Of a stretch of DNA of 64,000 bases, positions 18,193-40,582 are shown piece by piece. The notes under the pieces are model-generated. The model ran no database searches. It had not been told where the DNA came from and worked only from the letters and a program-made list of their open reading frames with translations. This DNA comes from Halodesulfovibrio sp. MK-HDV (GTDB lineage: Bacteria > Desulfobacterota > Desulfovibrionia > Desulfovibrionales > Desulfovibrionaceae). The stretch lies in NCBI RefSeq assembly GCF_009914765.1, contig NZ_WYDS01000009.1:1-64000 (forward strand). The letters are read 5' to 3'. Position 1 is the first letter of the stretch; each line of letters starts with the position of its first letter. A program made the translations under genes and the position numbers.

Positions 18193-19758
18193 ATGCTCAA
18201 AAAAATTCTTTGTATTGCCTGCTCAGAGGAACGGATAGCACTTTGTCAGTTCACTACGAACTGGCGGGGCTCTCAACTGCTGGATCACCAGATTATTCCA
18301 ATAAGTAATTTGGATGACCCTCAAAGCTTGGCTAAAGACCTAGCTGCCGCTATTGATCGCCATAACCTTTGGTCAAATCAATACAGGCTCTCTCTCCCTG
18401 CACATACTGCTATTCTTCGCAATTGGGATTTTCCATTCAGCACTCCGAAACAACTAGCTCAAGCTCTTGAATTTGAGCTTGAGCAGGAAATTCCTTTCAC
18501 CTCAGAAGAAGTAATTACAGACCTACAATTTGGTGCGAAAACACCACAGGGGCGCAAAGCTGTATCCGCAACAGTTCATAAAGAATTCCTTTCAGCAATA
18601 GTGCAAGAATTACAAACCTGTGGCATTGACCCTCAGCACATAACCATTGATGCATTTTCACTTGCTAAGATAGCAGGAGATATTTGCACAAAGGCACCAA
18701 CGCTTCTTATAAACATTGATGCTCAAAGCACGCAGTTGGTGTGCCTTGAAAACAATGTTCCATGTGCTGTTTCTCAGATTCCTTACGGCATACAAAACAT
18801 TAAACAGGCCCTGCAGCTCCAGCTTAGTGCAACCCCAGATGCCATAGAAAGACTCTTATTCTTTTCTGACATATCAACGCTAGACGAAACGGTTCCACTA
18901 GACGAACAGACATTTAAAGAAGCGTTAACCTCGCAACTACGACGTCTTGCTAAACAAATTTTATTATGTGCAAATGCAGATATGCCTTCCGCAGATTTCT
19001 TATTGATTTGTGGAGATCTTGCACGATTACAAGGGATAGAAAAATTCTTCACAGAAGAGCTTGGTCTTCCAACCACAGCAATTCACAAGCACCCAAATGC
19101 TTCCAAATTATTTTCGATCGAAGATAAAACGGATTGGCTTGAGTGTCTGCCAGCGCTTGCCTTGGCACCTGCAAAAAATACAAATTTCCAGCAGCAAAAG
19201 ACCGTCAACTTCCGAAAAGATGAATTTTCATTTTCAAAAAAACGTGACCCATTAGTCTACATAACTACTTATGCGACTGTCCTTGCATGTATCCTTATGG
19301 CTACGTTATCTCTTTCTCTTTTTGCTCAGGGACATCAGAATGACTTACGTGCCGCAGATCTCAACGCTAACCTTAAGAAGACGTTGCAAAAAACGTTACC
19401 TAAGGTAAACAAATCGTTCGGCACCATCCAGTACACGAGCATTCTAAAATCACGCCTTGCTCAGCTACATGGCAAATCAAATGCGAACGGCAACAAGACA
19501 GAAATTGATTCATTAGATCTGTTATTAGCCTTACATAAAAACACACCGAAATCGCTTGACATTTCCATGGAAGCCATCAGAATTACAGAAAAAAATATCG
19601 GACTAGTCGGGACCACTAACAGTTACAACACGCTTGAAAAGTTACGCTCTCATTTAGCAAAGAACTCATATTTTAAAGCTGTAACTATTCGCGGCGCCAC
19701 AAACCAAAAAAAACAAAAACGCATTCGTTTCGAGTTAGAAATAGAAAAGGCAGGCTAG
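18193..19758 (+). CDS. gspL: Type II secretion protein GspL
   Basis: This 521-residue protein has the GspL layout. A cytoplasmic actin-like/PilM-like part (about 1-350, with NWDFPFSTPKQLAQALEFELEQEIPF) precedes a single membrane helix (PLVYITTYATVLACILMATL, about 355-378) and a periplasmic ferredoxin-like part. GspL anchors the GspE ATPase to the inner-membrane platform. It is followed after one base by gspM and then other gsp genes. The N-terminal portion looks closest to PilM-like GspL variants of deltaproteobacteria. No strong ribosome site is seen upstream of the ATG. Confidence 0.8.
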   Translation: MLKKILCIACSEERIALCQFTTNWRGSQLLDHQIIPISNLDDPQSLAKDLAAAIDRHNLWSNQYRLSLPAHTAILRNWDFPFSTPKQLAQALEFELEQEIPFTSEEVITDLQFGAKTPQGRKAVSATVHKEFLSAIVQELQTCGIDPQHITIDAFSLAKIAGDICTKAPTLLINIDAQSTQLVCLENNVPCAVSQIPYGIQNIKQALQLQLSATPDAIERLLFFSDISTLDETVPLDEQTFKEALTSQLRRLAKQILLCANADMPSADFLLICGDLARLQGIEKFFTEELGLPTTAIHKHPNASKLFSIEDKTDWLECLPALALAPAKNTNFQQQKTVNFRKDEFSFSKKRDPLVYITTYATVLACILMATLSLSLFAQGHQNDLRAADLNANLKKTLQKTLPKVNKSFGTIQYTSILKSRLAQLHGKSNANGNKTEIDSLDLLLALHKNTPKSLDISMEAIRITEKNIGLVGTTNSYNTLEKLRSHLAKNSYFKAVTIRGATNQKKQKRIRFELEIEKAG

Positions 19759-19759
19759 C

Positions 19760-20263
19760 ATGAGACAGAATCATCGCACACTTATTCTTGGCATCTGCGG
19801 TGTTCTTTTGTTGAGCATTCTCCAGTTCATTCTACTACCAGCCATGGACTATAAAGAAGACATGGAGCGACAAGTTATCCGGAACACCAAAGCGATAGGA
19901 AAACTTGAGACTCTTACAAAAGAATATTCCCAACAGCTGCAAAAACGCAAAGCACTGTCCAAGGGCTTAGACAAAAACAAAGGGACACTTTTTGCAATTG
20001 TTGAAAAAGTTGCCCGTGATTTGCGCATAAACCGCAATATTGATGCAGTGCGCCCCAAAAAGCATGACCTTAAAAACAACCTAATAGAAGAAGAAGTTAC
20101 GCTTCGATTCAAAGGGTTGTACCAAAGACACCTCGTGAGTTTTCTATATAAAATAGAAAAAAATCTTCAGGGCATCACTGTCAAAAACCTGAACATAAAA
20201 CAAACAAAAGCAAAGATGCTGGATGTTGACATTGCACTTACTATGGTCACTTCAGTAAAATAG
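19760..20263 (+). CDS. gspM: Type II secretion protein GspM (PilO-like)
   Basis: This small bitopic inner-membrane protein has 167 residues. It has a short cytoplasmic head, one membrane helix (LILGICGVLLLSILQFILL, 8-26), a coiled-coil stretch (about 35-75) and a C-terminal ferredoxin-like domain ending in VDIALTMVTSV. This is the GspM/PilO architecture, and the gene sits directly behind gspL, its usual partner. The sequence is divergent, so the identification rests mainly on topology and position. Confidence 0.75.
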   Translation: MRQNHRTLILGICGVLLLSILQFILLPAMDYKEDMERQVIRNTKAIGKLETLTKEYSQQLQKRKALSKGLDKNKGTLFAIVEKVARDLRINRNIDAVRPKKHDLKNNLIEEEVTLRFKGLYQRHLVSFLYKIEKNLQGITVKNLNIKQTKAKMLDVDIALTMVTSVK

Positions 20264-20274
20264 TAGGCCACGCC

Positions 20275-21825
20275 ATGCAGGTATCTCCACAGGAAACGGC
20301 ACAAGTAAACCCATTTGGGGAACAATTCCGTGCGTTCCAATTTTACCCGTCCGAAAGTCACAAAAAAGTAGTCCACAGAATTACTCGAGGACTTGAATGT
20401 AACTGTGGACTTATTTTGCTCACCGGAGAAATTGGCATCGGCAAGACTTCAGTCTGCAGACATATTATGCAGTCCTTCGGGGATAAATATATTTTTGCAG
20501 AAAGCGGGAACCCTTTCTTCAAGCCCTCAGAACAGCTCTACAACTTCTGCAAGCAATACGGCATTGATACCACAAGCCGGAACTCCATTAGTGACCTTAC
20601 TGAGGGGTTGCATGACTTTTTTATGCAGCAGGCTGAAGTAGGTAGAAAGCCTGTTATCATTATTGATGAGAGCCATCTGCTGGGCGAAGAGCATTTTTCT
20701 TTACTTTTGGTCTTATACAACATGCGACTTGGCGCCATTCCACTTGTCCAGATCATTCTCATCGGCCAAGTCGAGATTATGGACAGGCTAAAACAGCCGG
20801 GATTAGAAGCGCTAAATCAACGAATAGGGGTACGTTGCGAACTGTTTCCAATGAACATGGAAGAAACAGAAAACTATGTGCAATTCAAGCTTGTTAATGC
20901 AGATTTTTCAGATATTGCAATCTTCGACAAAAAAGCACTTACCCGAATTTGGAATGTAACAGGTGGACTCCCCCGTCTTATCAACCACATATCGTCTCAT
21001 GCATTAGACACGATAACGTTTTCCGGAACCTCAAAAATTTCTTCTGCGTTGATAGATAAGGTTGCATCTGACCCTATGTATCAAGGCCTATTTACAATCC
21101 GCACAAAAAAACACCATCGTAAGTATGGAATGTTCATTACACTGGCTCTTGTAAGTGCGCTGCTTGGATGGTCGGCATATCAATTAAATGTTTCTGCACT
21201 TCTAAAAACGTACGCAAAGCAAACGCTTTTTCAGAAAGAAATTACACAAAGCGAAATAAGCGTTCGTCCAGAAACAAGCTCCAAGACAGCGGCTCCATCA
21301 TCAGCAGCGCTTTTACCCAAAATTGAAACTAACATTCTGGCAATACTCCCACCACTACCTGAGGCACCGGAGCTTACAGAGCCAGATTCTAATTTCACTA
21401 AAGACACTACGGTTGAAAGACAACTGACCATACCAACGAAGAACAGCGCTGTTTCCGTAACTGTCTATGACACCCCCAAAGAAAAAGCTTTTTCTGAAGC
21501 GCCTGAAGAGACAAGAACACAACAAGAAGACAACGCTATTATTTCGCAAGCACTAAAAAGCATACAAGTTGAAGCCACATCTAAAGACAATTCTATGCAA
21601 CTTTCCAATGAGATACTGGACGAACCATCCCATCCTGCACTAGAAGCTTTACAGATTGACGCACTTGCATGGTCAAAAGATCCTTCCACCCGAATGGTGG
21701 TTATCGGTAATCAAGTTTTGCATGAAGGAGATCAGGTTGGAAATTTTGTGCTCAAAACTATCGGGCGTGACCACCTCGTCTTCTCATTAAACGGAATAGA
21801 CTTTAAGAAAAATGGTAGATCGTAA
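20275..21825 (+). CDS. GspA-GspB fusion: ExeA-type AAA ATPase with C-terminal T2SSB domain
   Basis: The 516-residue protein begins with an ExeA/GspA-type ATPase. It has Walker A GEIGIGKT (51-58), Walker B VIIIDES (127-133) and a sensor region TGGLPRLINHI. A membrane helix follows (FITLALVSALLGWSAYQL, about 284-301), then a long Pro/Thr/Ser/Glu-rich periplasmic linker. The C-terminal domain (about 450-516: ALAWSKDPSTRMVVIGNQVLHEGDQV, then LKTIGRDHLVFSLNG) matches the GspB/T2SSB fold. In Aeromonas, ExeA and ExeB are separate proteins that help place the secretin through the cell wall. Here they are one polypeptide. Confidence 0.85.
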   Translation: MQVSPQETAQVNPFGEQFRAFQFYPSESHKKVVHRITRGLECNCGLILLTGEIGIGKTSVCRHIMQSFGDKYIFAESGNPFFKPSEQLYNFCKQYGIDTTSRNSISDLTEGLHDFFMQQAEVGRKPVIIIDESHLLGEEHFSLLLVLYNMRLGAIPLVQIILIGQVEIMDRLKQPGLEALNQRIGVRCELFPMNMEETENYVQFKLVNADFSDIAIFDKKALTRIWNVTGGLPRLINHISSHALDTITFSGTSKISSALIDKVASDPMYQGLFTIRTKKHHRKYGMFITLALVSALLGWSAYQLNVSALLKTYAKQTLFQKEITQSEISVRPETSSKTAAPSSAALLPKIETNILAILPPLPEAPELTEPDSNFTKDTTVERQLTIPTKNSAVSVTVYDTPKEKAFSEAPEETRTQQEDNAIISQALKSIQVEATSKDNSMQLSNEILDEPSHPALEALQIDALAWSKDPSTRMVVIGNQVLHEGDQVGNFVLKTIGRDHLVFSLNGIDFKKNGRS

Positions 21826-21835
21826 GGGGTACATA

Positions 21836-22294
21836 ATGACTCAGAGTAAAGAAATGAAACAAAAAAAACAGTCAAAAGAAGCAGGCTTCACCTTAATGGA
21901 GCTAATGGTAGTTATTGTTATTCTTGGTATCCTTGCTTCTATCGTTGTTCCAAGATTTCTTGATGAGCCGCACAAAGCACGTGTCGTAAAAGTAAAAATG
22001 CAAATTCAAGGTTTTTCCACAGCTGCCAAACGCTTCTACCTTGATAACGGCTACTACCCTAGTACCGAACAGGGACTGCAAGCACTTGTAAATAAGCCAA
22101 CTACAGGACGTGTTCCTAAACAGTTCCCAAAAAATGGCTACATTGGAAAAATACCAAAAGATCCTTGGGATAATGACTATGTTTACATTTCCCCAGGTTC
22201 TCACGAATCCTTTGATATTATCTCCTTTGGGGCAGACGGCGAAGAAGGTGGCATAGATGATGGTTCTGACATCCAAAGCTGGAATCTTGAATAA
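21836..22294 (+). CDS. gspG: Major pseudopilin GspG
   Basis: This is a type II secretion major pseudopilin of 152 residues. It has a prepilin leader with cleavage G|FTLMELMVVIVILGILASIVVPRF and the conserved Glu at +5. The GspG-specific body is complete: NGYYPSTEQGLQAL, PKDPWDNDYVYISPG, and FDIISFGADGEEGG, which includes calcium-site residues. The ATG at 21836 is preferred over an upstream in-frame start at 21812 because a TAAGGGG ribosome site precedes it and the leader then has usual length. It overlaps gspH by 38 bp. The prepilin peptidase that must process it is not in the window. Confidence 0.93.
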   Translation: MTQSKEMKQKKQSKEAGFTLMELMVVIVILGILASIVVPRFLDEPHKARVVKVKMQIQGFSTAAKRFYLDNGYYPSTEQGLQALVNKPTTGRVPKQFPKNGYIGKIPKDPWDNDYVYISPGSHESFDIISFGADGEEGGIDDGSDIQSWNLE

Positions 22295-22721
22295 GACTCA
22301 CGAATCAGGCTTTACCCTATTCGAATTAATTGTAGTTGTTGCCATTCTTGGAATAGTACTTGGACTTACTATTCCAAGCATCAACTTCTCAGATCCTGAA
22401 CGTGACATGGACACTGTAGTGAGACGGTTAGCTGGGGCAGTTTCAGAAGCTCGTTCACGCGCGCTGCTTAAACGAGAGCCACTCGAATTACACCTTGAGC
22501 CTAAACACATATTTCTTGTTCAGCGCAATGGAATGCAACAGCTGGGAAAATCAGCCCTTCCAACTACGGTAACTATTTCCAGTGTAATTGTAGACGAAAA
22601 AAATCAGCGCACGCTGTTATTTACCCCAAAGGGTGTAACGCAACCTGCTACAGTTGAGATTAAGTCACAATCAGGAATTCGCACGTTATTCATCAAACCC
22701 ATTCAAGGCGTTTCGTATTAG
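22257..22721 (+). CDS. gspH: Minor pseudopilin GspH
   Basis: The 154-residue protein has a type IV prepilin leader (S-G|FTLFELIVVVAILGIVLGLTIPSI) and a GspH-type beta-rich body (VRRLAGAVSEARSRALLKREPLELHL, then LLFTPKGVTQPATVEIKSQSGIRTLFI). It is expected in the tip or body of the T2SS pseudopilus. Its ATG lies inside the end of gspG and is preceded by AAGGTGG, pointing to coupled translation. Length and order fit other T2SS operons. Confidence 0.88.
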   Translation: MMVLTSKAGILNKTHESGFTLFELIVVVAILGIVLGLTIPSINFSDPERDMDTVVRRLAGAVSEARSRALLKREPLELHLEPKHIFLVQRNGMQQLGKSALPTTVTISSVIVDEKNQRTLLFTPKGVTQPATVEIKSQSGIRTLFIKPIQGVSY

Positions 22722-22789: not shown

Positions 22790-23737
22790 ATGATTCGTAA
22801 TACCTTATACACAATACTCATCAGCTTTGTACTACTGACCGGTTGTGCAAAGAAGAATACAGCTACACAGGAAGTGCCAGAGCTTAAGGAAGCAACTACA
22901 AAGGCTATAACGTTACAAAAAGAAGGTAGCCTTCAAGAAAGCCTCGTTTGGTACGCTCAAGCTTTGAAGATTAAAGAAACTCCTCAATTACGTAACGGTG
23001 CAGGTGCAGCATTACTTTCTTCTGGCGCCACCGAAGCAGCACTAAAAGAATTTGATCGTGCACTTACCTTTACTCCATCCTCACCGGACCTTCTCGCCAA
23101 CAGAGGTACCGCGTTATACCTTCTTAAAGAATACGATGATGCTCATTCTTCTTTTGACAAAGCGCTTTCATATAATCCATCACACGCCGAAGCTCTTAAC
23201 GGCAAAGCCCTCGTGCAACTTTACCAGAAGAATTACGAATCAGCACTAGTACTTTTTCTTCAAGCTAGAAAAGCTGCTCCTAAAAACGCCTACATTATAT
23301 ACAACACTGCCATCGCCTTTGAAGCAACAGGACTGTTAGAAGATGCAGAAAAAATATTTACACAGTACATCAAAATGGCTCCTAAAGATGCCAAGGCTTT
23401 TAACGGGCGCGGAGTAACGAGATTAAAGTTGGAAAAATATGCTGCATCCGCTCAAGACTTCAACAAAGCAATTGCACTAGACCCAACGGCTGGGAAGTTT
23501 TACTATAACAGGGGATTGTTGTGGCAAAAGCAACTAAAGTATCCTGATGCAGTAAAGGATTACACCCGAGCTATTGCATACACTCCTGACAATAGTGCCA
23601 GCTATGTAAACAGAGGGGACACCTACTTTTTACTTGATGAAAAAGAAAAAGGATGCAGAGATCTTAAAAAAGCATGCAACATGGGTCTCTGTGAAAAACT
23701 TGAGGCCTATAAAAATATAAATACATGTACAGATTAA
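22790..23737 (+). CDS. TPR-repeat lipoprotein at the end of the gspL-gspH operon
   Basis: This lipoprotein of about 315 residues has a clear signal peptide and lipobox (LLTGCAKK). At least six TPR units follow (for example GAALLSSGATEAALKEFDRAL and NRGLLWQKQLKYPDAVKDYTRAI). The ATG at 22790 with GAGTGAG upstream is preferred over a TTG at 22775. Its position behind gspH and before a strong terminator places it in the secretion operon. TPR lipoproteins of the PilF/PilW type act as pilotins for secretins, so a pilotin-like role is possible but unproven. It ends in a Cys-containing segment (CRDLKKACNMGLC). Confidence 0.75.
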   Translation: MIRNTLYTILISFVLLTGCAKKNTATQEVPELKEATTKAITLQKEGSLQESLVWYAQALKIKETPQLRNGAGAALLSSGATEAALKEFDRALTFTPSSPDLLANRGTALYLLKEYDDAHSSFDKALSYNPSHAEALNGKALVQLYQKNYESALVLFLQARKAAPKNAYIIYNTAIAFEATGLLEDAEKIFTQYIKMAPKDAKAFNGRGVTRLKLEKYAASAQDFNKAIALDPTAGKFYYNRGLLWQKQLKYPDAVKDYTRAIAYTPDNSASYVNRGDTYFLLDEKEKGCRDLKKACNMGLCEKLEAYKNINTCTD

Positions 23738-23747
23738 TATAAACAAA

Positions 23748-23783
23748 AGTAAAGCCGGCTAATGTCGGCTTTACTTTTTTTTT
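23748..23783 (+). terminator. Rho-independent terminator of the gspL-gspH-TPR operon
   Basis: Perfect 10-bp arms AGTAAAGCCG (23748-23757) and CGGCTTTACT (23766-23775) are followed by a T8 run. It lies 11 bp after the TPR lipoprotein stop. Confidence 0.92.
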
Positions 23784-23912
23784 CAGGACGTTACCAATGT
23801 AAGCGCACACTAACACAGCGTTCCTATTACAACGCCCTCTTTGCCAAACTATACAATGCCAAAAAAATGACAACTAACATGCTGTCAAAATAGACTTTTT
23901 TCCATTATGCCA

Positions 23913-23941
23913 TTGACGAAAAAGCTATCTCAAACTATAAG
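23913..23941 (+). promoter_or_regulatory. Sigma-70-type promoter of the Ser-rich lipoprotein gene
   Basis: TTGACG (23913-23918) and TATAAG (23936-23941) are separated by exactly 17 bp and lie 41 bp before the GTG start. With a terminator on each side of the gene, this makes it an independent transcription unit. It is the best-matching housekeeping-type promoter I noticed in the window. Confidence 0.7.
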
Positions 23942-23981: not shown

Positions 23982-26012
23982 GTGAAGTCTAGATTATTAG
24001 GAATTCTTTCCTTATTGGTTCTCGTTCTCGCGTTGACCGCGTGTGATGGTTCAAGTGGTAGCAGCAGTAGCAGCAGTAGTGGTGCTAAAGGCGCTGTTGC
24101 TGCGGCACCAATGCAATTGGCAAAAGTGTTTGGCCTTTCCGCTGAAGGTGCCGAAGTACTTATTGGCACAACAAACAATCGTGGTGCTTTTACTGCAAAC
24201 AGCAACACTTCAAAACTGCAGTTCCCAGCAGTTGTTTGGTCTGTTGGTGGTTGGAACGTCAATGACGATCCAACTGACGCAAGCAAAGAATTTAAAGGTA
24301 CACTTAAAGGCGTAATGGCATCTGCTGACAGTGCTGTTTACCTTACACCTGCAAACTCCCTTGTTGCTGCTTTCTTTGAAAAGTCAGGCAACCTTGCTGA
24401 AGCACAGCAACAGGTTGAAAGCTTACTTAAAAATGAAATGGGTCTCAAGATGACAGATCCATTGGGTAACCCTCTTACCGACCTTAACGAATCTGAAATC
24501 GTTGCTAAATCCTTGATGCACCTCATTGGCGCTGGTGATGAAAACAACGCCGCATCTATGGAAAAGTTTTCCAAAACAATCAGCGACGTAGCTGAAGCGA
24601 TGAACACAGGAATGACTTTTACTGAAGTTTTAAAAGTTATGCCAGAAAGTCCGTTCTTCGGTCACACTGACACTCTTTGCAATTGTGTTGAAGATGAAAT
24701 GGACGCTATCGTTGCAGAAGCCAAAGCTTCTCTTGGTGACTTGGGTGACCTTACTGAACTTGAAGACAATGCTAAAATAACAGATACTTCAACGTACCCT
24801 ATTGCTTTAGAGTTTGATGGCCTTAGCAGCACTGAAAAAGCATCTGGAACTCAAGGTGCTGTTGTCATTAAAACATTTAAAGCAGTAGTCACCAAAGCTG
24901 ACGGCAATGCTGTGGTTACCCAGACACTTCATTTAACATCCATCGCTAATGGTGTGTTAAATGATGGTACAGCTGATATGGTAGTTGGCGTAGATTCAGA
25001 TGTACCAGCAGCTCAGGATGTTACCTTTACAGTTGCTATTCCAGCAGACGCAACCTTCCCGTACACAGCGTCATTCACACTGGAAACTGTTGAAAGCGAC
25101 GACACTCTGCCAACATTTAGCCGCACATACACTATCACCTTTATTGGTGCAGACGAATTCGCGGTCAAAGAAGTTGCGTACAATGGTGATAAGTTATTTG
25201 CTTTTGCTACTCCTAGCACTGATGATGGAAAAATTGCTGAAGGTGCTACCGCATCTATTGCTGCAGATTCTTTTAAGGCAGATGTAGAGCTCGTTAACTC
25301 TATTGATGAGTCTTTAGTTGATGGCAATATGGATGTTCGTTTCATCGCGCCAGCAGGTCTTGCTTTCAACGACTCATCTGAAAACTCAGATATCGTAACC
25401 GTTGAATCCTTTACCAAATCTGGTACGACCTACACAGCAACTCCTGATGCTGCATACAGCTTCATCGCTAAAGATGATGTGGATGCCGGCTTCAAAACAG
25501 TTCGCATTCAGGTTCTTGATCAGGACGGTGAGACAATCGCTCAGACAGCTAAAGACATTGTCTTTGTTCCAGAAGATCAGAAAAAGAACCTTACTCGTGC
25601 AAACTTGACCGAAAAAACTATCTCAAATGCAATACCTGCAGTTGGAAAGCTCCCAATTACAGGCATCTCTCTTGATGGTTCCTACAGAACTTGGGAAAAA
25701 GAAGCAGATCCAGCAAAAACAACTGGCGGACTCACTTCAATTCCAGCAGATAGCAAAGTAATTCTCATGAGCAAAACTGGTGATAAAGTATTCGTCAATG
25801 CAATGAATGAACTCGTTGACCGCATTGATATCACCGTTACTATGAAAGATGACTTTACATTTGAGTCATCGGCCCCATTCGCTTTTGACTACTACTACAA
25901 CAACGCTAACGATGATATCAAAATGGTATTCATGTTGGATCCGTTAAATGATCCTAACAACAATATCGAATCATCCAACGTTCTCAAGCTTCGTTTTGAT
26001 CCAGCACCTTAG
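23982..26012 (+). CDS. Large Ser-rich lipoprotein, function unknown
   Basis: The 676-residue protein has a signal peptide and lipobox LALTAC (Cys21), then a poly-Ser linker and an acidic, Ala/Thr/Asp-rich body. Later parts look like repeated beta-sandwich (Ig-like) modules (for example FTVAIPADATFPYTASFTLETV). The start is GTG at 23982, with an ideal GGAGGT 4 bp upstream. A CNC motif sits near residue 230. N-linked glycosylation sequons are present, including one full D-x-N-x-S site at N169 (DLNES) and NLT twice near residues 536-541. It lies between the T2SS genes and the oligosaccharyltransferase gene, so it could be a secreted and glycosylated substrate. The family was not recognised. Confidence 0.75.
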   Translation: MKSRLLGILSLLVLVLALTACDGSSGSSSSSSSGAKGAVAAAPMQLAKVFGLSAEGAEVLIGTTNNRGAFTANSNTSKLQFPAVVWSVGGWNVNDDPTDASKEFKGTLKGVMASADSAVYLTPANSLVAAFFEKSGNLAEAQQQVESLLKNEMGLKMTDPLGNPLTDLNESEIVAKSLMHLIGAGDENNAASMEKFSKTISDVAEAMNTGMTFTEVLKVMPESPFFGHTDTLCNCVEDEMDAIVAEAKASLGDLGDLTELEDNAKITDTSTYPIALEFDGLSSTEKASGTQGAVVIKTFKAVVTKADGNAVVTQTLHLTSIANGVLNDGTADMVVGVDSDVPAAQDVTFTVAIPADATFPYTASFTLETVESDDTLPTFSRTYTITFIGADEFAVKEVAYNGDKLFAFATPSTDDGKIAEGATASIAADSFKADVELVNSIDESLVDGNMDVRFIAPAGLAFNDSSENSDIVTVESFTKSGTTYTATPDAAYSFIAKDDVDAGFKTVRIQVLDQDGETIAQTAKDIVFVPEDQKKNLTRANLTEKTISNAIPAVGKLPITGISLDGSYRTWEKEADPAKTTGGLTSIPADSKVILMSKTGDKVFVNAMNELVDRIDITVTMKDDFTFESSAPFAFDYYYNNANDDIKMVFMLDPLNDPNNNIESSNVLKLRFDPAP

Positions 26013-26036: not shown

Positions 26037-26069
26037 AAGGGCTGTGCCTTACGGCACAGCCCTTTTTTT
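26037..26069 (+). terminator. Rho-independent terminator after the Ser-rich lipoprotein
   Basis: Twelve-bp arms AAGGGCTGTGCC (26037-26048) and GGCACAGCCCTT (26053-26064) close a 4-nt TTAC loop. A T7 run follows (26063-26069). Confidence 0.93.
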
Positions 26070-31657: not shown

Positions 31658-31667
31658 CTGCGAATAT

Positions 31668-31704
31668 AAAAAAGCTGCGCAACTATATGCTGCGCAGCTT
31701 CATA
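31668..31704 (-). terminator. Rho-independent terminator between convergent GT4 and gspN
   Basis: The arms AAGCTGCGCA (31672-31681) and TGCGCAGCTT (31691-31700) are perfect. The A6 run on the left gives a U-tract for minus-strand transcripts from gspC-D-E-N. The plus-strand tail is weaker. Confidence 0.85.
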
Positions 31705-32683: not shown

Positions 32684-34372
32684 TTATAAATTGGAAACTC
32701 GCAGCACTTCCGCTACAGAAGTGACTCCGCTCAACACTTTCAAGCAACCATCACCTTTCAGCGTGCGCATACCATCTACAATTGATTCACGACGAATTTG
32801 ATTTGAATCTGCGTTCTTTAAAATCATACTTTTTATTGGATCACTAATCTGCATAATTTCATATACAGCCTGTCGTCCCTTATACCCAGTATCCATGCAG
32901 TGTGGACAGCCAGCAGCTCGGTGCAAAGTCTGATTTTCCATTTTACTCGCCATTTCACCACACTCTGCAACAACCTCGGCTGCAGCTGTATATGCCTCTT
33001 TACAATGCGGACAAAGAATACGCACAAGACGCTGGGCTACCACCGCTCGCAATACGGATGAAAGCAAAAATGGCTCCACGCCCATATCAATAAGACGTGT
33101 CACAGCACTGGCAGCATCGTTTGTATGTAATGTTGAAAAAACCAAATGGCCGGTCAGTGCCGACTGAATAGCAATATCCGCAGTTTCTTTATCGCGGATC
33201 TCACCAATAAGAATAACATCAGGATCCTGTCGCACAATAGAGCGCAACCCTGCAGCAAAGGTAAGCCCTGTCTTTTGGTTCACCTGTATCTGGCCGACCC
33301 CTTCAAGCTGATATTCAACTGGATCTTCAATGGTCATAATATTCTTATCAGGTGAATTAATGTCACTCAGTGCTGCATAAAGAGAAGTAGTTTTACCACT
33401 ACCTGTAGGACCAGTTACAAGAATAATACCGTGGGCAATGCGTGTAACTTTTTTCATAATTTCAAGATCAGCAGAACCGAGCCCAAGCTCCGTCAGGTTC
33501 AACACACGTGATGTCTTTTCCAACAGACGCATTACCACTCGTTCTCCATGAGATGTCGGTAACGTTGACACACGCAGATCGACCTCACGGCCGCCAAGGA
33601 TTAGAGCAATACGGCCATCCTGTGGCAGTCTTTTCTCTGCGATATTCAACTTTGCGAGAATCTTAATGCGAGAAACAATTGCTGCACTGAACCGCTTATC
33701 AAAACTATGTTTGTTATACAGAACACCATCCAGACGAAAGCGGACACGCAAAAAATCCTTAAAAGGTTCAATATGCACATCACTTGCCCCGGCACGGACT
33801 GCTTGCGTTAATACCATGTTAACGAGCTTAATTAATGGTGCATCACTCGTATCATCAAGCAAGTCGTTCAGTGTATCTTCATCAATTTCATCCAACCCAA
33901 GGTCATTCGCATCATTCAACACATCACTAACATTGGCATCTTCCTGAAAGTCACCAAAAGCACGGTTGATTAAACCGGTGATCACATTGCGAGGCAAAAG
34001 AACAGGTGAAGGAGTTCCGCCACCTAGTAGCAGAGAAAAATCGTTAAGAACCTTCAATGAATACGGATCGGCCATTCCTACAACAACACCCTCTGCCCCT
34101 CTAAGCGGAACAATCTGATGTTTTTTTAAATAAGTAATGGTAAAACGGCAAATAAGTTCCGTATCGACCATTTCCTCTGAAACAGCTGCAAGCATTTCCA
34201 GCCCATAAAACTCGGCCTGTGCACTTTTAAATTGAATCTCTGTGAGCAATTCATTTTCTAGTACAACTTCTTCAAAAGTTTTTCCTTGCTCAGAAGCTTC
34301 TTGATCCAGCCATACAATATCGTCTGCTGTAATAAGGTGCTTTGCTACAAGAGCATGTTCTAGCGTTCTCAT
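32684..34372 (-). CDS. gspE: Type II secretion ATPase GspE
   Basis: This 562-residue secretion ATPase has an N-terminal N1E/MshEN-like domain (1-150), the RFRLDG and DLRVSTLPTSHGERVVMRLL Asp/Arg regions, and Walker A GPTGSGKTT (321-329). It also has the Asp box and Walker B DPDVILIGEIRD, the His box LVFSTLHTNDA, and a zinc tetra-Cys module (CPHC in LCPHCKEAY and again in GCPHCMDTGY). All catalytic elements look intact. It overlaps no neighbour and lies 8 bp from gspD. It powers pseudopilus assembly through GspL and GspF. Confidence 0.95.
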   Translation of the reverse strand: MRTLEHALVAKHLITADDIVWLDQEASEQGKTFEEVVLENELLTEIQFKSAQAEFYGLEMLAAVSEEMVDTELICRFTITYLKKHQIVPLRGAEGVVVGMADPYSLKVLNDFSLLLGGGTPSPVLLPRNVITGLINRAFGDFQEDANVSDVLNDANDLGLDEIDEDTLNDLLDDTSDAPLIKLVNMVLTQAVRAGASDVHIEPFKDFLRVRFRLDGVLYNKHSFDKRFSAAIVSRIKILAKLNIAEKRLPQDGRIALILGGREVDLRVSTLPTSHGERVVMRLLEKTSRVLNLTELGLGSADLEIMKKVTRIAHGIILVTGPTGSGKTTSLYAALSDINSPDKNIMTIEDPVEYQLEGVGQIQVNQKTGLTFAAGLRSIVRQDPDVILIGEIRDKETADIAIQSALTGHLVFSTLHTNDAASAVTRLIDMGVEPFLLSSVLRAVVAQRLVRILCPHCKEAYTAAAEVVAECGEMASKMENQTLHRAAGCPHCMDTGYKGRQAVYEIMQISDPIKSMILKNADSNQIRRESIVDGMRTLKGDGCLKVLSGVTSVAEVLRVSNL

Positions 34373-34380: not shown

Positions 34381-36339
34381 CTACTGAAGGATAATAGGCG
34401 GTAACAGACTTGGATCACTCATCATAGGCAGACCTAAACCATCCTTACCTACGCGGGTCGTATGCACACTCAAACGTTTGTTCTCAGCAAGTTTTTCAGC
34501 TTCATCAAAGCTGTTGATGATATGTGGCGTAATAAAAATGTATAAATTACTCTTTGCATTAGTTTTTTTCCTCTGCTTAAACAACCAGCCAAACAAAGGA
34601 ATATCACCTAACCCTGGAGTCGAACTATTGTTCTTCGTACCATCTTCGCTCAACAAACCTGCAATTACAACAGTTTGACCATCTTTCATACGGATAGTCG
34701 TCTCTACCACGCGTTTACGGGTTGTCGGTGCTACAAGGCTCTGTCCATCCCCAACAGCAACGAGCGAGTTAAGCACGCGGCTTACCTCCTGCAATACATC
34801 AAGCTGAAGAGTCTGGTTCTGTCCAATTCGCGGTGTAATTTTCAGCTTAACACCAACATCCTTGTAATCAACACTTTGAGTATTAATGGCGGTTGCAGTA
34901 GTAACTACAGTTTCTTTCACAAAAGGTATGTTATCAACAACATCTACACGCGCTTCTTCATTATCTAGAGTAAGCAGCTGTGGAGTGGCAAGAATGGTGT
35001 AATCGTTGTCACCTTTCACAGCACTCAAGATAGACTGGATACTATATTCTGTCCCGCCAATGGAAAATGCATTTTCTATAATCGCACCAATGGAACCGCC
35101 AGCTGGAAAAGCCGGAAAGCCAGTGCCACTTGACGATGGCAGAGAAACGGTACCACCACCTTGGTTAGATGAACCAAAAAGGAACACTTTCCCAGCTTTT
35201 TGCCCACCAGCCCAGTTTACACCGAAAGAAAAATTCGAATCACTGGAAGCTTCCATAAGCAAAGCTTCAATGAACACTTGTTTTCGTTCAACATCTAATT
35301 TTTCAATGGTCGACTTGAGAATCATAAAGTCATCTGGACGTGCAGTAATCACAAGGCTGTTTGTAGCTTTGTCTGCCACAATTTTTACCTCACGAGAAAG
35401 TACTTTCTCTTCCTTTGTATTCCCCTGACGTTCAACTAACGTATTAATAACCTTAGCCACATCTTCTGCTTTAGCATTTTCCAGCGAAATAAAATGAATA
35501 TCACCCTTGCCGGCCGGAGTAGGGATATCCAATGTTTTAATCATAGTTTTGATAGTCATCATGGTTTCAGGATCAGCAAGAACAAGAACCACGTTTGTTC
35601 TCTCGTCTGCTTGCACAAGTGCCATGGCTTTTTTGCCAAATTTTTCCTGCTCTTTAACTTGTGTAGTCAAAATTTTACTCAAGTTCGCTGCCACACTTTT
35701 TGAGTCACCAAATTTTAATGGGAACTGCCTAAACTGTGGTGCGTATTGTGATTTATCTATCTCATTAATGACTTTTTGAGCTTCTTGAATACGTGCAAAC
35801 GGTGCAGTAATAATAAGTGAGTTTGTAGGAGGATACACGGTCACAAGCCCGTTTTTACCTATAAGCTTTGGAATAACCTTTCCAAGCTCTGATGCACTGG
35901 AATGCTTCAAAGAGATGAGCAGTGTAACAAGTTCGTCACCTGTAGGTTTGTGCTGTCTTAAAGAAGAGTCTGAGGTAAGGGTAGGAACCCCTTCACTACG
36001 CCCAACGGCAAGTGGCATAATCTTATACACTTTTCCACTTGGAACAATCGTGAAGTTGTTTACCTGTAAAACAGATTCAAACACACGATACGCTTCTTCC
36101 ACGCTTACCTTTGAAGGAGAATAAATAGTTACCCTTCCTCCAACGCGGTTATCGACAATAAAATTTTTTCCGGTCAATTCGCTAATAAATTTAATCAGTA
36201 CATGAATTTCAACTTTCTTAAAATCCATGCTGATATATGCATGTTGTGATGCACTGCCAGAACAGACTGCGGTACCAGAAAGCATGCAGACAACCAAAAC
36301 TACGCCAAGTATACGCATCATTTTATTCGCTATCATCAT
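34381..36339 (-). CDS. gspD: Type II secretion outer-membrane secretin GspD
   Basis: This 652-residue secretin has a signal peptide (about 1-27). N0 (AYISMDFKKVEIHVLIKFISELTGKNFIVD) and several N1-N3 modules follow (LKHSSASELGKVIPKLIGKNG, FISLENAKAEDVAKVINTLVE). The beta-barrel domain contains the VDNIPFV and ETTIRMKDGQTVVIAGLLSED signatures and ends near LYIFITPHII. The Ala/Gly-rich insert FPAFPAGGSIGAII lies at the gate region. It forms the outer-membrane exit channel. It sits between gspC and gspE, the canonical order. No long C-terminal S domain is evident, so a different pilotin mode is likely. Confidence 0.95.
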   Translation of the reverse strand: MMIANKMMRILGVVLVVCMLSGTAVCSGSASQHAYISMDFKKVEIHVLIKFISELTGKNFIVDNRVGGRVTIYSPSKVSVEEAYRVFESVLQVNNFTIVPSGKVYKIMPLAVGRSEGVPTLTSDSSLRQHKPTGDELVTLLISLKHSSASELGKVIPKLIGKNGLVTVYPPTNSLIITAPFARIQEAQKVINEIDKSQYAPQFRQFPLKFGDSKSVAANLSKILTTQVKEQEKFGKKAMALVQADERTNVVLVLADPETMMTIKTMIKTLDIPTPAGKGDIHFISLENAKAEDVAKVINTLVERQGNTKEEKVLSREVKIVADKATNSLVITARPDDFMILKSTIEKLDVERKQVFIEALLMEASSDSNFSFGVNWAGGQKAGKVFLFGSSNQGGGTVSLPSSSGTGFPAFPAGGSIGAIIENAFSIGGTEYSIQSILSAVKGDNDYTILATPQLLTLDNEEARVDVVDNIPFVKETVVTTATAINTQSVDYKDVGVKLKITPRIGQNQTLQLDVLQEVSRVLNSLVAVGDGQSLVAPTTRKRVVETTIRMKDGQTVVIAGLLSEDGTKNNSSTPGLGDIPLFGWLFKQRKKTNAKSNLYIFITPHIINSFDEAEKLAENKRLSVHTTRVGKDGLGLPMMSDPSLLPPIILQ

Positions 36340-36341: not shown

Positions 36342-37172
36342 TTACTTCAGCCTGAACGTCAAGGTTTGGCTTTTTCCTTTCCGAATAATATTTAAGGAAA
36401 TATTATTCTTATCTAACATGGACATTAAAGAAGCCGCATCACCAAAGGATGTTAAAGACTTGCCATTTGCCTTTACAAGCAAATCGCCTTTACGCAATCC
36501 CATATTATATAAGAAACTTCCAGACTGTAGCGCCTGCACATGCAGCCCTTTCCTTCCCCCTTTAGTCTGAGGAACGATTTTAATACTGCTCGCGACCTTA
36601 CTTAAATCTTTCAATTGATTTTTGATATAACTTCTTGCAACAACACGCCCCCCAGAGCTTCCGCGAGAAGCTGTTGCTTTTTTCCCGTCTATCAGAAGAC
36701 GTTCTTTTGCCCTTCCCCGTTGTAAAATGATCTCACGTCTCTTTATCTCTACAACTTTCCAACCACTGATTTTTGAGCCATTCCTATATAGTGATTGTTT
36801 GTTTTTATACAAAACAATCGCCCAACTTTCAGATGGCTTTTCAGCAAATATTGTCCCGAGCAGATGAAACCCACGCTTACTAATGGAAAGAGCCTGGGAT
36901 GTAGTTTTTTTCTTAGGCTTTCTTTTCTTTGGAACTGGGGGAGCATTTTTTACTTTGAGAAGATTTCGTTGCTCAATAATTTTAAAAGAACTTAATGCAA
37001 CCTGCTTCTCTAAGATTTTTTTAGTAGTAACATTACGTGTCACATACTTGGGAGCTATGTCCTGTTCTACAAAAAAGAGAGCATAACAAGCATCGGCCAT
37101 AAAATATGAAATTGCTGTAACTACCAGCAATTCAATAAAAATTTTCACTTTATCCGTCAAAATGCCTGTCAT
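36342..37172 (-). CDS. gspC: Type II secretion protein GspC with PDZ domain
   Basis: This is a 276-residue bitopic protein. It has an N-terminal helix (FIELLVVTAISYFMADACYALFF, 11-33), a Lys-rich linker and an HR domain (FHLLGTIFAEKPSESWAIVLYKNKQSLYRNG, about 101-131). The C-terminal PDZ domain is SGSFLYNMGLRKGDLLVKANGKSLTSFGDA, followed by VLIRKG-like strands. GspC links the inner-membrane platform to the GspD N-domains and selects substrates. It is the first gene of the minus-strand gspCDEN operon, 2 bp before gspD. Confidence 0.88.
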   Translation of the reverse strand: MTGILTDKVKIFIELLVVTAISYFMADACYALFFVEQDIAPKYVTRNVTTKKILEKQVALSSFKIIEQRNLLKVKNAPPVPKKRKPKKKTTSQALSISKRGFHLLGTIFAEKPSESWAIVLYKNKQSLYRNGSKISGWKVVEIKRREIILQRGRAKERLLIDGKKATASRGSSGGRVVARSYIKNQLKDLSKVASSIKIVPQTKGGRKGLHVQALQSGSFLYNMGLRKGDLLVKANGKSLTSFGDAASLMSMLDKNNISLNIIRKGKSQTLTFRLK

Positions 37173-37344
37173 CTAGCTCTCGTCAATTGAAAATTGTAAA
37201 GATTTCAAGTAATAACCAAAAGATTCTGTATTACATCGCTTGCAAACGGCTATAAAACAGCTGCGATTACAAGGCAAGACTTGAATGATATAAACGAACT
37301 AAAGCAAATACAGCCTTTTTAAACACAATTCAATATAACTCTCC

Positions 37345-38452
37345 ATGTACACACCAAAAAAAAAATGCCCAACTCGCCATACTTCATGACTACATTGAAC
37401 ATACAGACGGGGGCAGCAGGCTCTGCACAATTCTCGGTAGACAACTTGGCGCAGACTTGTATTACGGTTTCCGTCGCGCTGAACACCCTTTTTTTACGCC
37501 TCCTTACGGACCTGGAGCAGAACAAGCACTAATGCACGCAATTAACATTCCTTTACTGCGCCAATTTATTCTTACACGCACTTTCAGCAAGCGCACTCAA
37601 TTTGTACGTAAATATCCCACCACTATTTTTAGCGGATTTTATGCTCCCCTCGCGGCACCATACCTAGAGGGACAGCAAGGAATTTACTATTGTCACACTC
37701 CACCCCGTTTTGTGTACGGCGAACGTGACTTTTTTCTTTCTACAGTTCCTGCTGTTGCAAGACCTCTTCTTAACAGTTTTATAAACTGGTATGCCCCACA
37801 GTTCAAAAAAACGCTGCCACATATTCAAACATTTGTGGCGAATTCAAAGAACGTCCAAGAACGCATCAAAAATTTTCTGCACAGAGATTCGACGATTGTA
37901 TATCCGCCTTGTGATACCGAACAATATCATAACGCAGAATCACAAGGGTACTACCTCTCCATGGGGAGACTAGACCCTCTTAAACGGATCGATGTCATCA
38001 TTAATGCATTTAAAGAAATGCCAACGAAAAATTTGGTGATCACCTCTTCTGGGCCTTCTGAAGAACAACTGAAAAAACTTGCAACAGACTGCGATAATAT
38101 CAAATTTGTTGGGCAGCTATCCGAAAAACAACTGCAAAAAGCTATTGCGGAATCGATTGCAACTATCTACATTCCAAAGCAAGAAGATTTCGGCATGTGC
38201 GCTATCGAATCAATGGCGGCTGGCAAACCGGTAATTGTGGCTGCTGAGGGTGGACTTCTCGAAACTGTTACCGATGGTGAGACAGGCATTTTCACCCCTG
38301 CAAATCCTCAGGGCAAAGACATTATCGAAGCCGTAAACTCGCTCTCAGCCAGCAAGGCAACATGCATGAAAACAGCATGTCTTGACCGGGCAACACAATT
38401 CGATACTTCGGTATTCGTTAATGCCATGAAGCGTCTTATCTTGGAACGCTAA
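37345..38452 (+). CDS. GT4 glycosyltransferase, start region interrupted by A10 tract
   Basis: The GT-B coding frame is clear from about 37364 onward (NAQLAILHDYIEHTDGGSRL, then GRQLGADLYYGFRR). This is the expected N-terminus of a GT4 enzyme and ends with EDFGMCAIESMAAGKPVIVAAEGG. In that frame no ATG or GTG exists upstream. ATG 37345 is out of frame by one base because of an A10 run (37356-37365); with nine A it would read MYTPKKNAQLAILHDY. A TTG at 37457 would delete the conserved first strand and is unlikely to be the true start. The enzyme probably works with the N-glycosylation genes. A10 is long enough for polymerase or replication slippage. Confidence 0.75.
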
Positions 38453-38500
38453 CTGCACACTTCGATCACGTTCTCAGCACCATTTGAAAAAGAGAATTAC

Positions 38501-38902
38501 ATGCCCTGCATCCAGCCTGACAAAGCTCACTCCATCTCCAAACAACCCTCCGGCAATGAAGGTTTCACCATCGTTGAAGTTCTGGTTGCCTTAGTGCTGT
38601 TAGGGGTAGCAGTCATGATGACAGTTACTCTGACCACACAAAATCAGGACAACCTTGCCCAGACCCGCTTGCAGGATACTGCAATTGTTCTTGCGCGAGA
38701 AAAGCTCTTCGAACTGGAAAACGACGGATTTTCGGCAAGTACAGGAAAGTCTGGCGATTTTCGTCCGGACCATCCTGGGTTTACGTGGAAGGCTTCAGCG
38801 CATGCTACAAACACAGCGGCTATCTATAGATTACTCTTGACTGTTTCATGGGGAGATGAGGAAGACAGAGATGTTACCATTGAAAAACTATTCAAAGAAT
38901 AG
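38501..38902 (+). CDS. gspI: Minor pseudopilin GspI
   Basis: The 133-residue protein has a prepilin leader with site G|FTIVEVLVALVLLGVAVMMTVTL and Glu at +5. A short GspI-type body follows (ARTRL-like QTRLQDTAIVLAREKLFELE, then FTWKASAHATNTAAIYRLLLTVSW). It belongs to the tip complex GspI-J-K-H. It overlaps gspJ or abuts it depending on the gspJ start. The leader before the cleavage site is long (about 21 residues). Confidence 0.9.
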   Translation: MPCIQPDKAHSISKQPSGNEGFTIVEVLVALVLLGVAVMMTVTLTTQNQDNLAQTRLQDTAIVLAREKLFELENDGFSASTGKSGDFRPDHPGFTWKASAHATNTAAIYRLLLTVSWGDEEDRDVTIEKLFKE

Positions 38903-38903
38903 A

Positions 38904-39551
38904 ATGCCTACTCAGATTACCCCTCCGAACGGGCAAGCAGGTTTTACTTTATTTGAAGTACTCATCGCCATGACGCTAATGGCGACCATTATCACAACTC
39001 TTTTTGCACTGTTCGGCAATGTAATTGACGCATCGCAACATGCTCGGAAGCGTATGGCATACGATCAAGCCGGCAGAACAATTTTAAGCATTGTTGAAGA
39101 TGATTTTCGCTATATGCTTCCAGATATGAAGACTAGTGGACTGAAGTTTGATGCAACGATGGATAGCGATACATTTGAAGAACAAGACCTGCTTGGATTT
39201 GCCAGCACATCCTCCCTCGCTTTTCGTACTCATGAACATGTCCGCTCACTACAATATGTTACCTACTCCCTTAAAGAACAAGACAACGATCTCTTCACAC
39301 TTATCAGAACAGAACGTCCAAACCCCACAGTTACAGGGGACTTTAAGGAACTGAAATATCCTCTTATTGAGGACGTCTCTGAATGTGTATTTGAGTACTA
39401 CAATGGTGAATATAATGAATTTCAAAAAGATTGGGGCGTAGAAAAATCGCAGCTTCCGACAGCCATACGCATGACCCTTACTCTGGGTACAAAAGACGAA
39501 CCATACCAATATCAGCTTGTAATTCCATTACCGCAGGAGGATGAATTATAA
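38904..39551 (+). CDS. gspJ: Minor pseudopilin GspJ
   Basis: This is a 215-residue pseudopilin from ATG 38904, with leader MPTQITPPNGQAG and mature FTLFEVLIAMTLMATIITTLFALFG. The body has the GspJ pattern RTILSIVEDDFRYML, LAFRTHEHVRSLQYVTYSLKEQ and AIRMTLTLGTKDEPYQYQLVIPLP. In-frame upstream starts (38856, 38871) lie inside gspI and would give an unusually long leader, so 38904, one base after the gspI stop, is preferred. It partners GspI and GspK at the pseudopilus tip. Confidence 0.9.
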   Translation: MPTQITPPNGQAGFTLFEVLIAMTLMATIITTLFALFGNVIDASQHARKRMAYDQAGRTILSIVEDDFRYMLPDMKTSGLKFDATMDSDTFEEQDLLGFASTSSLAFRTHEHVRSLQYVTYSLKEQDNDLFTLIRTERPNPTVTGDFKELKYPLIEDVSECVFEYYNGEYNEFQKDWGVEKSQLPTAIRMTLTLGTKDEPYQYQLVIPLPQEDEL

Positions 39552-40582
39552 TGCGACTACCTGCGCCATCCATTGAACGTAATAACGAGCAAGGCACCAT
39601 TATCATCATCGTCTTGCTTGTACTTGTAGTGTTATCCTTTCTTGCCATGGAATTATCCAAGGAAACACTTATTGATCACACAAGCTCCGTCTATGTAAAA
39701 TCATCCATCACTGGAAATATTCTATGTGATTCCGGAAGGATGCTTGCGAAAGAAATACTGGTTACTGACTTAGAAGAAAGCAAAGGTGACTACAATTTTG
39801 AAACATGGGGCCTGTTTAATACAGAACTCGAGGATATTTCTGAGGAGTTAACAAGCGGTACTCTTTCTGGAGAAATAACAGACGAGAACTCACTTTTCCC
39901 TATTAATAAGCTTGCGCTACTTGATAAAAATACAAAAAAAATTACTGAACAATATCAGGGTGTCTTTTTGCGCATGCTGAAAACGCTTTGTAGCGATTTA
40001 AATTTGACCTCAGGAACAGCGGAAGATCTCCTCATTTCAATACGCATTTGGCAGGGTGAACAGCTCTCTAGAGCCTCAGAGGACGACACTTGGTACGCGG
40101 CTCAAAAGATACCGTACACTCGAACCAAAAAAACATTCCGTTCACCAGACGAAATGCTCCTCCTCTACTGGCCCAAAGCCAAAGAAAGCGATATTAAAAA
40201 GCTTTATTATGGCACGGATTCAGTAAGCGGCTTACGCGACCTCATAACGATATGGGGAGAAGGGCCTATTAACATGAACACTGCAAATGAAACTCTGACT
40301 ACTGCCATTCCTATTGCGAACAATAATAAAGAAGACTTTCTGAATAGGATGGCGCTTTACCGCAACGATCCTACCAGTAACTTCGAAACAACATGGTATC
40401 TTAACGCAGCTAAGTTTAGTGGAATTGAAGAAAAGAATATTCCTAAAGATATCTTGGATTTTAAATCCAACACATTTCGCGTCACTCTCACCGCTGATAT
40501 TGGCAGTGGCAGTAAGAAAGAAATAATTTTTCTGCGCCGAACAGATAAAAAAGTCGTCCTTCTGGGAAGCCATGGAGAATAA
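39551..40582 (+). CDS. gspK: Minor pseudopilin GspK
   Basis: The 343-residue protein is the largest minor pseudopilin. It has a short leader and hydrophobic helix (QGTIIIIVLLVLVVLSFLAMEL). The usual +5 Glu is absent, which is typical of GspK. It carries the alpha-helical domain that caps the pseudopilus (DENSLFPINKL, then PINMNTANETL, a GspK hallmark). Its ATG overlaps the gspJ stop (TAATG) behind an AGGAGGA site. It completes the gspIJK group, transcribed apart from gspGH. Confidence 0.9.
   Translation: MRLPAPSIERNNEQGTIIIIVLLVLVVLSFLAMELSKETLIDHTSSVYVKSSITGNILCDSGRMLAKEILVTDLEESKGDYNFETWGLFNTELEDISEELTSGTLSGEITDENSLFPINKLALLDKNTKKITEQYQGVFLRMLKTLCSDLNLTSGTAEDLLISIRIWQGEQLSRASEDDTWYAAQKIPYTRTKKTFRSPDEMLLLYWPKAKESDIKKLYYGTDSVSGLRDLITIWGEGPINMNTANETLTTAIPIANNNKEDFLNRMALYRNDPTSNFETTWYLNAAKFSGIEEKNIPKDILDFKSNTFRVTLTADIGSGSKKEIIFLRRTDKKVVLLGSHGE

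Follow-up and report, generated by a model that had tools for sequence, protein, structure and literature searches.

The described systems closest to the one reported here include the single-subunit oligosaccharyltransferases (OSTs) PglB of Campylobacter and the characterised PglBs of Desulfovibrio, the haloarchaeal Agl pathway, in which the family 2 glycosyltransferase (GT2) AglJ starts a dolichyl-monophosphate glycan that is transferred by AglB, and the Acinetobacter protein CpaA, reportedly an O-glycosylated substrate of the type II secretion system (T2SS) modified by a PglL-type O-OST encoded outside the T2SS locus. They also include GspN-type T2SSs with the surface lipoproteins PulA and InvL (PMC12802150) and the GacI/GacJ (EpaI/EpaJ) pair, a polyprenyl-phosphate-GlcNAc synthase (PMC8327497). 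The locus that we compared with them was found in Halodesulfovibrio sp. MK-HDV (contig NZ_WYDS01000009.1, positions 1-64,000; this whole stretch of 64,000 nucleotides is referred to as the window, and the genome as G000). Positions 18193-40582 of the window contain the T2SS genes gspC-N, together with genes encoding an STT3/PglB-type OST, a GT2, a DUF2304 protein and two family 4 glycosyltransferases (GT4a and GT4b), as determined from the list of open reading frames (ORFs) and their Pfam and NCBIfam families; the positions and families given for them in an earlier note on this DNA proved accurate.

The T2SS shares with the PulA/InvL systems the presence of GspN and of a lipoprotein encoded in the same locus (LP676) whose lipobox precedes a Gly/Ser-rich stretch, and differs from them in the OST cassette and in the absence of a recognised domain in LP676. 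The GT2 gene is followed by that of a DUF2304 membrane protein, as in the GacI/GacJ pair, although the product of the window pair is proposed here to feed protein glycosylation. With the Agl pathway the locus shares a weak AglJ match of its GT2 and the lack of a phosphoglycosyltransferase among the families matched at 18193-40582, but the system is bacterial and includes DUF2304. CpaA resembles the proposed client in being a T2SS substrate that carries a glycan. The parts of the locus are of known kinds; their combination and the change in the OST motif described below are not described in the literature searched (open PMC papers), and searches on OSTs and T2SSs retrieved no paper title describing an OST cassette within a T2SS locus.

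We consider the chances about even that this locus encodes a T2SS with a built-in glycosylation cassette, whose OST would glycosylate an exported client, most likely LP676, which the T2SS and GspN would bring to the surface. In the proposed mechanism (i) the GT2 and its DUF2304 partner would load the first sugar onto polyprenyl phosphate, as GacI/GacJ do in streptococci, (ii) GT4a, and GT4b where expressed, would lengthen the glycan, (iii) the lipid-linked glycan would be flipped, (iv) the OST would move it to the exported client in the periplasm, and (v) the T2SS with GspN would pass the glycosylated client through the secretin and onto the cell surface. We infer these steps, as well as co-transcription of the cassette and the roles of LP676 as cargo and acceptor, from sequence comparisons. 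We regard it as likely that glycosylation and the T2SS are functionally coupled; LP676 is probably a T2SS cargo, and the probability that it is also the glycan acceptor is a little short of even. The best reading is that a lipid-linked glycan is added to a surface lipoprotein before its export by the T2SS, perhaps at a non-canonical site. Of the options offered in the earlier note, periplasmic glycosylation of a cargo before export fits better, with LP676 as the likely client.

The gene-order comparison in Desulfovibrionaceae proposed by the earlier note showed that the arrangement recurs, which excludes its being unique to one assembly. Among 288 genomes of the family, an OST match (at 1e-9) was found in 130, a gspF match (at 1e-40) in 105 and both in 47. 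The OST lies within 5 kb of gspF in at least 9 of these 47 genomes (G000, G001, G031, G081, G225, G233, G260, G271 and G275; read by hand), with two such loci in G081; G032 is also linked, its OST scoring under the cut-off used. The chance expectation is 0.33 of 47 (assuming a 3.7-Mb genome with 2 gspF and 1.3 OST genes; 0.57 with assumed numbers of 3 and 1.5), giving a Poisson P of ~1e-10 for nine genomes, or ~2e-5 when only five events are counted. For at least 7 of the 24 gspF matches at 1e-100 or better, a hand count shows an OST no more than 5 kb away. The T2SS-linkage state changes at least five times on a 41-row OST tree, if G279, whose gspF is ~25 kb away, is counted as linked; this tree leaves out L049, L055 and L059, which share contigs with G537, G244 and G303, the unusual ORFs of G302 and G195, which look fused, and ORFs shorter than 500 aa or below 250 bits, and the position of G001a on it is uncertain (long branch).

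The composition of the linked loci varies. Gene orders were obtained with a simple ORF caller and hidden Markov models built from few seeds, so that genes lying under longer antisense ORFs can escape. The locus G001a is a single run, gspC-D-E-I-J-K-L-M-G-H-TPR lipoprotein-large lipoprotein (LP)-GT2-DUF2304-OST-gspF-GT4a, and in G081a four LPs are followed by GT2-DUF2304-OST-gspF-GT4a and then by gsp genes. G225 has the order gspI-GT4a-hydrolase-J-K-L-M-AB-G-H-TPR lipoprotein-LP-OST-GT2-DUF2304-ABC2 membrane protein-ABC ATPase-gspF-C-D-E-N, the ABC-2 transporter pair being placed between DUF2304 and gspF; G233 is similar, without the ABC pair and with GT4b beyond gspI. In G275 the OST is followed, after 1.3 kb, by GT2-DUF2304-gspF-GT4a and then by a GDP-mannose pyrophosphorylase, a GDP-mannose dehydratase and an epimerase (GDP-mannose/fucose-type). 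G260 and G271 (the latter on the same contig as L052) carry GT2-DUF2304-hydrolase-like lipoprotein (by eye)-OST, then gspF and gspNEDC on the other strand, and G279 carries LP-OST with gspF-GT2 and gspN-E-D-C ~25 kb further on. In G031 (C14, the same contig as L051) and G032, the genes after gspF encode an OST from a different branch (WWDWG) and, judged by eye, a response-regulator-like protein. At L093 (G081 C2:836000-855999), three OST genes belonging to separate branches lie close to a second gspD, E, F set.

The history of the cassette is illustrated by the congener G005, whose T2SS is closely related to that of the window (GspF 85% and GspD 88% identical; T2SS DNA 73-78% identical) and in which 13 of 13 gsp proteins still align. 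G005 lacks LP676-OST-GT2, and the OST search gave no match in this genome. In window positions, the alignment is interrupted from 23737 to 29084, the second point lying inside DUF2304, then from 30514 to 31668, around GT4a, and from 37343 to 38487, around GT4b. The 3' part of DUF2304 persists in decayed form, its frame broken, and is a clear scar (tblastn E 2e-5); shorter remnants of GT4a (both ends) and GT4b (the start) are visible by nucleotide alignment alone, with no significant protein match (best E 0.54 and 3.2). From the scar and these traces, the cassette probably predates the split between the window and G005, and was probably lost from G005 in three places; LP676 went with the first deletion, perhaps as a passive loss. 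For this pair of genomes, the idea that the cassette entered the window by a recent insertion was rejected on account of the DUF2304 scar. Among other OST-less loci, G001b, G008 and G009 keep an LP, and G002 has neither gene. In G001b and G008, 13 residues at the junction of LP and gspF match DUF2304 (E 0.002-0.003), and there are GT4b-like matches (0.24-0.40), from a search of 17 intergenic pieces in which most other matches were plainly due to chance; these weaker traces are no more than suggestive.

The coupling of OST and T2SS is supported because the linkage recurs in several lineages and because G005 bears cassette scars. It is decidedly improbable that a mobile glycosylation island was repeatedly inserted in T2SS loci without a functional link: the cassette order does vary (OST-GT2-DUF2304 or GT2-DUF2304-OST) and the cassette was lost in G005, as expected of a neutral neighbourhood, but the linkage far exceeds the chance expectation, the genes occupy three separate slots of one locus, and no transposase or integrase occurs among the families matched at 18193-40582 (mobile elements were not searched as such).

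No second OST turned up in the genome when this one was used as a query. Its AlphaFold2 model (pLDDT 83) shows a GT-C fold with a C-terminal periplasmic domain, and the best match in the PDB is 5ogl (TM 0.78), PglB with acceptor peptide and lipid-linked sugar; identity in the structural alignment is ~16%. The score against the NCBIfam PglB model is far below the cut-off (64 vs 1300 bits). The acids D57, D162/D164 and E295 align with D56, D154/D156 and E319 of C. lari PglB, and together with R353 and Y446 they correspond to PglB residues that bind the metal, the acceptor amide, the pyrophosphate and the sugar (PMC7226087). The likeness to Campylobacter PglB extends to fold and to catalytic, metal and lipid-phosphate residues. 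In PglB, the Asp and Trp of the WWDYG motif bind the +2 Thr/Ser of the acceptor (PMC7226087), and the motif has been termed strictly conserved in N-OSTs (PMC3527161). The window OST reads WWSPG instead. Since it lacks the Asp which reads the +2 Ser/Thr of the sequon, the term N-glycosylation used in the earlier note is uncertain in its canonical sense.

The Asp is kept in 36 of the 41 OSTs of the tree, and the five lacking it form one branch (support 100/99), with the motifs WWSPG (G000), WWGPG (G275, G279 and G225) and WWGEG (G233). These five proteins are alike over their whole length, and a profile built from them matches 3rce (E 5e-43). D162, D164, E295, R353 and Y446 are invariant in all five, and D57 in the four with an intact N-terminus. 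Judged from the alignments, the clade has lost the sequon-reading Asp and kept the catalytic acids. All five are associated with a T2SS: three are located in the locus (G000, G225 and G233), one is beside gspF (G275) and one is ~25 kb away (G279).

A degenerate OST, or one performing another GT-C reaction (e.g. transfer to lipid or of a single sugar), has a very slight probability. In C. jejuni PglB, WWDYG changes occur in 11 single-mutant and 4 double-mutant inactive clones, and the WD-to-AA double change is inactive (PMC3527161); the WWSPG replacement and the frame of the G275 OST, broken near its start, agree with such a loss. Against it stand the invariance of the residues listed above and the confinement of the changed motif to one branch, whose members are otherwise alike. 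A more specific form of our proposal, a dedicated "glyco-secretion" in which the WW[S/G]xG clade, with catalysis kept, would glycosylate surface lipoproteins bound for the T2SS at non-canonical sites, selected through delivery or local context and not by N-X-S/T, is rather unlikely.

The donor of the glycan may be a polyprenyl monophosphate, as in haloarchaea, because the GT2 and DUF2304 genes are adjacent, as in the GacI/GacJ type, and no phosphoglycosyltransferase family was matched in the locus by the family scan of 18193-40582. GacI/GacJ make undecaprenyl-phosphate-GlcNAc (PMC8327497). The GT2 matches the NCBIfam models of PpgS, dolichyl-phosphate hexose transferase and AglJ (E 1.1e-14 for the last), all far below their cut-offs. 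The T2SS locus is adjoined, at 2379-16864, by a glycan-type cluster with several glycosyltransferases, a DegT aminotransferase, a GFO/IDH/MocA oxidoreductase and a SIS-domain protein, which could act as a sugar supply.

The earlier note mentioned one lipoprotein in the locus; a lipoprotein is indeed present, but there are two, a TPR-repeat protein and LP676. The latter (676 aa) has a signal peptide, a lipobox and a Gly/Ser tract, and no match in Pfam or NCBIfam. T2SS-dependent lipoproteins of A. baumannii have Gly/Ser- or Asn/Asp-rich residues after the lipidated Cys and need GspN (PMC12802150). When the G, S, N and D residues at P2'-P8' are counted (maximum 7), LP676 scores 7, and 9 of the 10 scored OST-adjacent LPs score 6 or 7 (window, G275, G225, G233, G279, G025a and three of G081a, the fourth of which is cut at the locus edge and was left out), the sole low scorer being that of G001a (3). 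The same rule, applied to 1179 ORFs from the retrieved loci, yields 36 other lipoproteins, none of which scores 5 or more; the Fisher P of this comparison is too small, since the LPs are partly kin. Large lipoproteins adjoin the OST in G000, G001a, G081a (four), G225, G233, G275, G279 and G025a, in G025a and G279 even with the T2SS distant.

Because the gene-order scores include self-matches, the LP groups were retested using separate seeds. The LP of G279 is found clearly and that of G225 weakly by the LP676 group (window, G001b, G008 and G009), and the G001a/G081a group finds those of G225, G025a, G275 and G233 weakly; the weak scores may be helped by low-complexity N-termini. An N-terminal module common to both groups was indicated by one hhalign comparison (probability 79%, E 1.5e-5). 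The LP profile (A2) gave a best match to PDB sequences (4peu, E 0.005, profile positions 5-79), and a single-sequence structure prediction of LP676 was unusable (pLDDT 36). A second LP676-family lipoprotein (742 aa) is encoded tail-to-tail with an orphan gspD (653 aa; L154:13526-18038, G000 C3), around which no further gsp gene was labelled in 36 kb. In other OST-less T2SS loci, the slot on the gspF side is occupied by large amidohydrolases whose starts resemble signal peptides (G068, G296 and G155 tested; G157 and G161 by eye), which fits a cargo slot. Amidohydrolase-family proteins of ~950-1150 aa are encoded beside gspF in L098, L083 and L100, with two large tandem ORFs in G296, of which one was tested. 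Alpha/beta hydrolases with an N-terminal hydrophobic stretch were also observed in T2SS loci, at L074:704-1612 (G001b, gspC-gspI slot) and L096:1841-2743 (G225, gspI-gspJ slot).

The pseudopilins and secretin, named in the earlier note as alternative targets, did not find support. Sequon (N-X-S/T) enrichment was rejected as a pointer to the acceptor, as LP676 shows none and the counts in T2SS parts show no correspondence with the presence of the OST. GspG has no sequon in 9 of the 10 GspG rows from 11 tabulated loci, the window included, the exception (G002) being OST-less; sequon sums over T2SS parts are 17 in the window and 18, 33, 22, 12 and 8 in the OST-less G005, G002, G009, G001b and G008. 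Glycosylation of components of the secretion machine (pseudopilins, secretin, GspK) by the OST is therefore improbable, the more so since congeners carry the same T2SS without an OST. The position of the OST gene beside gspF is in its favour, as is an OST reportedly devoted to type IV pilin; sequon counts would carry little weight for a non-canonical acceptor site. The coupling of glycosylation to the T2SS that the earlier note put forward as a possibility is supported in part, for the cargo.

Together with the kinship among the LPs, several observations weigh against glycosylation of a T2SS-exported LP. The WWDYG change could mean an inactive enzyme. LP676 is not enriched in sequons (5 vs 6.0 expected), and LPs beside Asp-less OSTs carry 27 vs 41.4 expected (p 0.005), against 24/19.2 for those beside Asp-keeping OSTs and 18/16.8 for those without an OST; this group test is post hoc and sensitive to Ser-rich sequence. 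Relatives of LP676 occur in OST-less T2SS loci (G001b, G008 and G009, with motif scores of 3, 5 and 0), so that the LP does not need the OST, and the second LP of the window genome, beside the orphan gspD, scores 2. Conversely, G081b, G260, G271, G031 and G032 have an OST and gsp genes without an LP label. In G275, gspF is the only gsp gene beside the OST (32 kb read), gspG and a secretin being located ~30 kb away. Finally, all 20 further OST loci read away from the T2SS-linked ones lack a gsp label; 15 of these 20 contain the full set of GT4a, GT2, DUF2304 and OST, and the other five the OST with two, one or no partners.

These gsp-free sets speak for another explanation, that the cassette is a general glycosylation system which modifies many periplasmic and surface proteins, with no special role for T2SS clients, and lies in the T2SS locus for co-regulation or by cluster history. 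We consider this unlikely. It agrees with the OST being the sole one found in the genome and with the relaxed site preferences of Desulfovibrio PglBs (PMC4894442), but it does not account for the repeated changes of T2SS linkage on the OST tree, for the association of the Asp-less clade with T2SS genes in five of five cases, or for the LP adjoining OSTs whose T2SS is far off, no LP label having been found in the 20 gsp-free loci.

The features of the locus are listed in Table 1. The plus strand carries, in order, gspL-M-AB-G-H, the two lipoproteins, OST, GT2, DUF2304, gspF and GT4a; gspN-E-D-C follow on the minus strand, and GT4b and gspI-J-K, downstream, on the plus strand. One locus thus encodes GspC, D, E, F and G, the minor pseudopilins and L/M, with M and I weak. 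GspE, GspD, GspG and GspN pass their NCBIfam cut-offs (GspN 66.9 bits, cut-off 50), GspF is ten bits short (414.4 vs 424), and gspM has no Pfam match. The gspF gene is the only T2SSF-family gene found in the genome, its two matches being its two domains; a second secretin gene is present elsewhere.

Table 1. Features of the T2SS locus of Halodesulfovibrio sp. MK-HDV (window positions)
Feature	Position	Strand	Remarks
gspL	18193..19758	+	PilM_2 / T2SSL / PilN domains
gspM	19760..20263	+	weak: NCBIfam XpsM-type GspM, E 0.0025; position and alignment with relatives
gspA-gspB fusion	20275..21825	+	AAA ATPase and T2SSB
gspG, major pseudopilin	21812..22294	+	TIGR01710 above cut-off
gspH	22257..22721	+	
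TPR-repeat lipoprotein	22790..23737	+	label present in many T2SS loci of the family
terminator-like hairpin, TPR lipoprotein/LP676 gap	23745..23778	+	hairpin scan
LP676, large lipoprotein	23982..26012	+	lipobox, Cys 21, then Gly/Ser tract
terminator-like hairpin, LP676/OST gap	26037..26064	+	top score of scan
OST, STT3/PglB type	26105..28153	+	D57, D162/D164, E295, R353, Y446 kept; WWSPG at 441-445
GT2, polyprenyl-phosphate-sugar synthase type	28158..28856	+	best NCBIfam models PpgS and AglJ type, all below cut-off
DUF2304, GacJ-like membrane partner of GT2	28853..29218	+	
gspF	29250..30488	+	T2SSF family
GT4a, glycosyltransferase	30497..31657	+	fourth member of recurrent cassette
terminator-like hairpin, GT4a/gspN gap	31671..31701	-	scored on minus strand, i.e. 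after gspN
gspN	31726..32667	-	TIGR04411 above cut-off
gspE	32684..34372	-	TIGR02533 above cut-off
gspD, secretin	34381..36339	-	TIGR02517 above cut-off
gspC	36342..37172	-	
GT4b, glycosyltransferase	37366..38452	+	conserved N-terminus upstream of called TTG start 37457
gspI	38501..38902	+	N-methylation motif, position, alignment with relatives
gspJ	38856..39551	+	
gspK	39551..40582	+	

The coordinates bear out the observation of the earlier note that gspF is located within the glycosylation run. All gaps at 26105-31657 are of 31 bp or less: the OST and GT2 genes are separated by 4 bp, GT2 (whose start is probably at 28158) and DUF2304 overlap by 4 bp, and 31 and 8 bp precede gspF and GT4a, respectively. 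The three hairpins of Table 1 are the best-scoring ones of a scan which gave 31 sites vs 17.6 in shuffled sequences, so that lone weak sites mean little; a promoter scan was uninformative (31 sites vs 38.6 expected). Based on the hairpin positions and the short gaps, OST-GT2-DUF2304-gspF-GT4a probably forms one transcription unit, and LP676 a separate one. An A10 tract at 37356-37365, longer than any other A/T homopolymer in the window, separates the conserved N-terminus of GT4b from the nearest ATG upstream, and the two are out of frame with each other; slippage, phase variation and a sequencing error are candidate explanations. Beyond the T2SS locus, the window encodes two molybdopterin xanthine-dehydrogenase-type proteins, with the gene of a sigma-54 activator between them (42192-51980).

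If the proposal is true, bacterial glycosylation and T2SS export would be genetically linked, and there would be a natural OST family active in the absence of the Asp to which sequon reading is ascribed. The choice of acceptor by this OST would be directly testable, and the range of sites usable by bacterial OSTs could widen. The surface lipoproteins exported by the T2SSs of sulfate reducers would then bear a sugar coat.

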